Source: a virus. From it: a stretch of 25,416 bases of DNA. The notes under the pieces were generated by a model. The model saw only the letters and a list, made by a program, of their open reading frames with translations. It was not told the DNA's origin and did not search any database. This document shows positions 24,491-24,721 of this stretch, one piece after another. The translations under genes were made by a program, and so were the position numbers. The stretch is taken from positions 1 to 25,416 of the IMG/VR virus record IMGVR_UViG_3300032240_000522. One strand, 5' to 3'. How positions within the stretch are numbered: the first letter of the stretch is position 1; each line of letters opens with the position of its first letter.

Positions 24491-24667
24491 ATGGAATTAG
24501 CTGAGATATGTGTTAGAGTAGGTTTCTGTAAATCAAAAACAGAAGCTCGTCGCCATATAGCTGCTGGTGCTATCAGGATTGATGATAAGAAAATAACTGA
24601 TCCGAAAGCTCAGTTGTATGTCAATATGGAAAAGAAAACTTATTGTCTCGTTAGCTCAACTGAATAG
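24491..24667 (+). CDS. Stand-alone S4-type RNA-binding protein
   Basis: 58 residues, AGGA at 24479-24482. Starts MELAEICVRVGFCKSKTEAR, then RHIAAGAIRIDDKKITDPKA and ends KKTYCLVSSTE. This is the S4 fold (alpha-L motif: LxxxGxxxSxxEARRxIxxGxIxIxxxxxxD), most like the C-terminal tRNA-binding domain of tyrosyl-tRNA synthetase, with no catalytic domain attached. It sits inside the tRNA array and its last 23 bases are also the 5' end of tRNA-Arg. An RNA-binding role on tRNA or rRNA is likely; the target is not known. Confidence 0.82.
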   Translation: MELAEICVRVGFCKSKTEARRHIAAGAIRIDDKKITDPKAQLYVNMEKKTYCLVSSTE

Positions 24668-24721
24668 AGCATCGCGCTACGAACGCGAAGGTTGGGGGTT
24701 TGAATCCCTTGCGGGACACCA
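24645..24721 (+). tRNA. tRNA-Arg(ACG), overlapping the S4 gene
   Basis: Acceptor GTCTCGT/GCGGGAC (two G-U pairs), anticodon stem TCGCG/CGCGA with loop CTACGAA, T-loop TTTGAAT, encoded CCA. An ACG anticodon needs A-to-I editing, presumably by host TadA. Confidence 0.94.

Follow-up and report, generated by a model that had tools for sequence, protein, structure and literature searches.

The window analysed here is the whole of IMG/VR record IMGVR_UViG_3300032240_000522 (25,416 bases). Its replication genes are T4-like, its clamp-loader and translation-repressor region is similar to that of cyanophages, and a tRNA array then follows; the arrays that carry the S4 gene described below belong to freshwater T4-like phages. 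Seventeen tRNAs make up the array in the window, 16 called by ARAGORN plus a tRNA-Cys found by Rfam only, which aligns with the tRNA-Cys(gca) of the two closest relatives (contigs L001 and L002, both from IMG/VR). The features around the S4 gene are as follows.

23448-24329, plus strand: ORF for a TctC-like periplasmic protein (PF03401, E 5.8e-16)
24320-24395, plus strand: tRNA-Gln(ctg), called by ARAGORN, 10 nt of it overlapped by the TctC-like ORF
24399-24470, plus strand: tRNA-Cys (Rfam, 46.6 bits; missed by ARAGORN), directly upstream of the S4 ORF
24479-24483, plus strand: AAGGA, a Shine-Dalgarno-like sequence, 7 nt 5' of the S4 ATG
24491-24667, plus strand: S4-only ORF of 58 aa, ATG to TAG (from the ORF list, Pfam S4 and SYY_C-terminal matches, tyrS as best match, and dN/dS)
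24645-24667, plus strand: overlap of the S4 ORF and tRNA-Arg, 23 nt, from the last two bases of codon 52 through codon 58 and the TAG
24645-24721, plus strand: tRNA-Arg(ACG), called by ARAGORN (Rfam RF00005, 53.1 bits), with an intact cloverleaf and an encoded CCA

The S4 ORF is thus placed between tRNA-Cys and tRNA-Arg(ACG). A first-pass annotation had proposed a stand-alone 58-residue S4 protein within the array whose last 23 bases are the 5' part of tRNA-Arg(ACG), and both statements hold: the product of 24491-24667 matches Pfam S4, and the overlap is exact, stop included, covering nt 1-23 of the tRNA with the TAG at nt 21-23. The tRNA nt 3-8 encode Leu53 and Val54 of the predicted last strand (TYCLV), so that part of the S4 fold is coded by the tRNA acceptor strand. 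The TctC-like periplasmic binding protein gene also sits within the array; its best PHROGs match (E 0.18) is not convincing. From tRNA-Leu to the end of the record (24884-25416) convincing ORFs are absent, and the stretch carries repeated TTCAGCAAA-type motifs and possible hairpins.

Profile searches place the protein close to the C-terminal tail of tyrosyl-tRNA synthetase (TyrRS). The Pfam S4 match (PF01479, E 3.3e-9) spans residues 3-42 of 58 at 36.8 bits against a curated cut-off of 22.8, and the TyrRS C-terminal domain (SYY_C-terminal, PF22421, E 4.3e-8) scores 33.4 bits against 27. Whether the query was the window protein or its family, searches of NCBIfam, PHROGs and PDB sequences also put TyrRS at the top; with tyrS as the best NCBIfam entry and tyrosyl-tRNA synthetase as the best PHROG, the likeness to a TyrRS tail suggested in the first-pass annotation is right. 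Whole-protein models scored far below their thresholds: 25.1 bits against 113.8 for full-length tyrS (TIGR00234), over 40 C-terminal profile positions only, and 16.8-22.9 bits against cut-offs of 82-177 for uS4.

The AF2 model (pLDDT 83) predicts helices at residues 3-10 and 16-24 and strands at 41-45 and 50-54, that is, the two-helix hairpin on a small beta sheet by which the S4 fold is recognized. Fold matches in the PDB come from the S4 domains of uS4, Imp3 and TyrRS, with Z about 6 and an rmsd of 2.6 over 48 residues, scores that are low in absolute terms; Foldseek E-values are weak (best 0.096), with uS4 and Imp3 among the top structural matches alongside TyrRS.

From a scan of 84,980 species, 80 cellular relatives were retained, and all of them resemble TyrRS C-termini. 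They end long or contig-cut frames, and none of the 80 is a free S4-only gene. The phage protein shares with the bacterial TyrRS C-terminal S4-like domain the alphaL core SKxEARRxIxxGxIxxD, and its last strand, KKTYCLV, is comparable to KKSYCLV in L104. Unlike a TyrRS tail, however, it is free-standing, lacks a catalytic domain and is encoded within a phage tRNA array. Its loop between the last two strands is also some 7-11 residues shorter than in the cellular tails and the GKK motif is replaced, so its tRNA contacts may differ from theirs.

Small proteins consisting of one S4 domain are also found among ribosome rescue factors, RqcP and Hsp15 (HslR), and an RqcP-like or Hsp15-like role would have the phage protein bind peptidyl-tRNA on stalled 50S subunits, which could be useful where array transcripts become non-stop mRNAs. 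Single-S4 proteins with such a job exist (PMC11317155), the predicted fold of the window protein is compatible with one, and cut array transcripts would give non-stop messages. By sequence, however, the nearest relative is TyrRS, not RqcP or Hsp15. The recognition residues reported for these factors, Arg2, Asp4 and, for RqcP, K14-R15-R16 (PMC11317155), correspond here to Glu2, Ala4 and K14-S15-K16 when the register is set by shared numbering, and at 58 aa the phage protein is shorter than B. subtilis RqcP, which has 86 (PMC11317155). We therefore regard this role as unlikely.

A homology search for S4-only phage proteins, proposed with the first-pass annotation, found relatives in 11 other viral contigs, every one within or adjoining a tRNA array of a related phage; loss of the ORF from all homologues had been named as the outcome that would count against the gene, and homologues retain it. 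In L001 and L002 the ORF recurs at 93% aa identity with the 23-nt overlap unchanged. The window and L001 differ by 8 synonymous and 4 non-synonymous changes (dS 0.256, dN 0.030), which together with the recurrence argues that the open frame is not due to chance. More distant relatives were found by scans with an alignment: the proteins of L094-L096 are 67-69% identical, and those of L025, L029, L031, L098, L099 and L101 36-47%. Within the second of these groups dN/dS is likewise low (for example, 0.019/0.330). The S4 protein is under purifying selection.

These data bear on whether the ORF could be a functionless, decaying fragment of a TyrRS gene. Such a fragment might well be short and retain the tail alone, as here, but dN/dS is about 0.1 in two subgroups, and against L094 synonymous sites are saturated, yet 67% of residues are retained. 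Start, length and Shine-Dalgarno-like site are all kept as well. Decay is largely refuted by the dN/dS values, and we consider it highly improbable.

The S4-only genes occupy three array positions: between tRNA-Cys and tRNA-Arg, between tRNA-Phe and tRNA-Ile, and directly after a GATase-like gene. An extra 37-aa ORF (MQTVHGDFVYMLCGWMYVYMKRVGEAYHYYISHRKLH) lies immediately 5' of the S4 gene in L001 (about 3885-3998) and L002 (about 3886-3999) and is not in the window, so the S4 frame has persisted whether this upstream ORF was inserted or deleted; the S4 leader CTCCAAACAAAAGGAATAT recurs 5' of this extra ORF in L001. A tRNA-Tyr accompanies the S4 gene in several arrays, a co-occurrence that is not informative because tRNA-Tyr is also found in many other large arrays. 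Among cultured-phage records in INPHARED, no S4-only relatives were detected with the window, L025 or L094 proteins: tblastn with the window protein gave no match at E up to 1, and the other two drew weak hits only, the best of which (MT838256) was set aside as a full TyrRS gene of 410 aa. For the GATase-like neighbour, too, no relative among cultured phages appeared at E 1e-10.

How the S4 ORF ends differs among these relatives. The 23-nt overlap with tRNA-Arg is limited to the window, L001 and L002, and since the latter two are identical in the ORF, its conservation among closest relatives rests on one comparison. The ORFs of L025 and L031 end 10 nt into a tRNA-Ile, with U8-A9-G10 of the tRNA as the stop; those of L094-L096 have a TAA of their own following the equivalent strand (YYIVV); and those of L029, L098, L099 and L101 have no tRNA overlap. 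The 25-mer at the 5' end of tRNA-Arg (CTCGTTAGCTCAACTGAATAGAGCA) is present in six contigs without an S4 gene before it, so there is no sign that this half of the tRNA has adapted to the ORF, and L002 has a second tRNA-Arg(acg) without the ORF.

The first-pass annotation saw in the overlap a possible built-in switch, in which RNase P maturation of tRNA-Arg would leave a non-stop S4 mRNA, making tRNA and protein mutually exclusive and regulated thereby. The physical premise stands: cleavage at 24644/24645 would take away codons 53-58 and the stop, and a transcript once cut could no longer provide both the complete message and the mature tRNA. The overlap is also conserved in the window and its two closest relatives, as a switch would predict. 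A dedicated switch, however, fits poorly with an overlap that is variable (23 nt of tRNA-Arg, 10 nt of tRNA-Ile, or none), with a tRNA-Arg 5' sequence that is unchanged where the ORF is absent, and with the frequency of such overlaps at unrelated array genes. We hold such a switch to be very doubtful.

That frequency was estimated in a junction survey of 95 viral loci with 646 tRNAs, counting genes of at least 100 aa followed by a same-strand tRNA. Non-redundant junctions numbered 70; at 30 of them the gene runs into the tRNA, and at a further 23 it ends 0-29 nt before it. The overlap is exactly 10 nt at 16 junctions, where the TAG stop is U8-A9-G10 of the tRNA; nt 8-10 read TAG in 386/646 tRNAs. 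Among overlaps longer than 8 nt, 16/26 are in that frame, above the one in three expected (binomial P about 0.003, with relatedness ignored). The window holds a second case, as the TctC-like gene takes its TAG stop from nt 8-10 of tRNA-Gln. It is thus common for protein genes of such arrays to stop within tRNAs, with U8-A9-G10 as stop codon, and pipelines that do not allow a CDS to overlap a tRNA would miss these genes or cut them short.

The junctions also turn over. The GATase-like gene ends in tRNA-Ser (14, 23 or 37 nt), tRNA-Glu (15 nt) or tRNA-Phe (10 nt), and in L094-L096 apparently outside any tRNA, which indicates turnover; proteins of the same family carry different tRNA-encoded tails in different phages. 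Behind the S4 gene of L094-L096 (about 3175-3250) lie chimeric tRNA-like sequences that ARAGORN did not call and whose acceptor stems, read by eye, are unpaired: L094 and L095/L096 have a tRNA 5' half in common (GGATCCATAGCTCAGT), but the 3' half attached to it differs and is Val-like or Gly-like. One 5' half with two 3' halves points to recombination within conserved tRNA sequence, which would be the simplest reading of these chimeras. The overlap looks like something that shuffled and compacted arrays generally produce, not a special switch.

A related process has been proposed for phage T6, where microhomology between a tRNA 5' end and a 3' coding end may promote recombination (PMC13096335). 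The T6 SegB/tRNA-Tyr locus and other phage tRNA arrays have in common with the window ORFs interspersed in a tRNA array; what differs from T6 is that the natural phages studied here have gene ends inside tRNAs. In Rhodobacter phage RcXuper (L186), an annotated CDS (6095-6466) ends 15 nt inside the 5' half of tRNA-Val (at 6452), the single case in that array, and in Stenotrophomonas phages Moby and Ps15 the gap between gene and tRNA is mostly at least 5 nt. S4 domains, single-S4 proteins, phage tRNA arrays and occasional CDS/tRNA overlap are already known. We found no description in the searchable open-access literature of an S4-only (TyrRS-tail-only) phage protein family, or of tRNA-supplied stop codons with regular U8-A9-G10 use in phage arrays.

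The reading we favor, at somewhat better than even odds (roughly 0.55), is that the ORF encodes a genuine, conserved S4-only protein resembling a TyrRS tail that binds tRNA in trans, and that the tRNA-Arg overlap does not serve as a dedicated control. The gene would be a cargo gene of tRNA arrays, a detached TyrRS-type tail, and as such adds a free-standing protein of this kind to their gene repertoire. S4-like TyrRS tails bind the variable and anticodon arms of tRNA-Tyr, and also RNA non-specifically (PMC4275181; PMC5370408), so the most likely role of a free copy in an array is to chaperone or shield tRNA by binding it; the protein may approach phage or host tRNAs from the variable/anticodon arm side. 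Array rearrangement, possibly by recombination, would have put the ORF against a pre-existing tRNA-Arg. With its own stop then lost, the ORF would have taken Leu53, Val54, a short SSTE tail and the UAG from the 5' half of the tRNA. The transcript would be readable as mRNA only until the RNase P cut makes it a non-stop message, presumably a generic consequence and not one specific to S4.

The same kinship would also suit a tail with a dominant-negative effect, competing for the tRNA-Tyr of the host or remodelling translation after host shut-off, given that the nearest relatives are TyrRS tails, which bind the tRNA-Tyr variable arm (PMC5370408). The phage itself needs Tyr-tRNA for growth, however, and interference of this kind seems to us quite unlikely. 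A bolder proposal is an anti-defence role. Septu and retron-Eco7 are defence nucleases that cleave the variable arm of tRNA-Tyr (PMC13096335), and a free TyrRS-type tail might coat that arm on host and phage tRNA and shield it from nucleases of this type. We offer this as a long shot. If true, it would be an anti-defence acting on the tRNA itself and carried beside replacement tRNAs. The S4 protein offers a concrete candidate, open to testing, for a factor that protects tRNAs when defences cleave them.

Several other observations concern the arrays themselves. A near-identical non-coding stretch 3' of tRNA-Ala (CCGAGCAATCACAGGCTGCTCG...GGTTACTGGTGACACTCCTAAGCTGTAGGAACCTTA) is found in the window (23100-23190), in L001 (3058-3143) and in L044 (near 6970), and is partly present in L020 (near 11823); this conserved tRNA-Ala/tRNA-Thr spacer has no Rfam match and folds no better than shuffled sequences (z 0.42). 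Another conserved, non-tRNA spacer (cgtggtaaggaaagcct...cacctgccacataaat) occurs in L001 (3646-3785) and L002 (3244-3390) and was not seen at that place in the window. Calls of "tRNA-SeC(tca)" in relatives fall at the position of the 78-nt tRNA-Glu(ttc) of the window with the anticodon set one base further on, and are probably register errors. Lastly, tRNAs with a CUA anticodon (labelled Pyl by ARAGORN) occur in L007, L008, L009, L011 and L098, and are possible amber suppressors in arrays with many UAG-ended genes.
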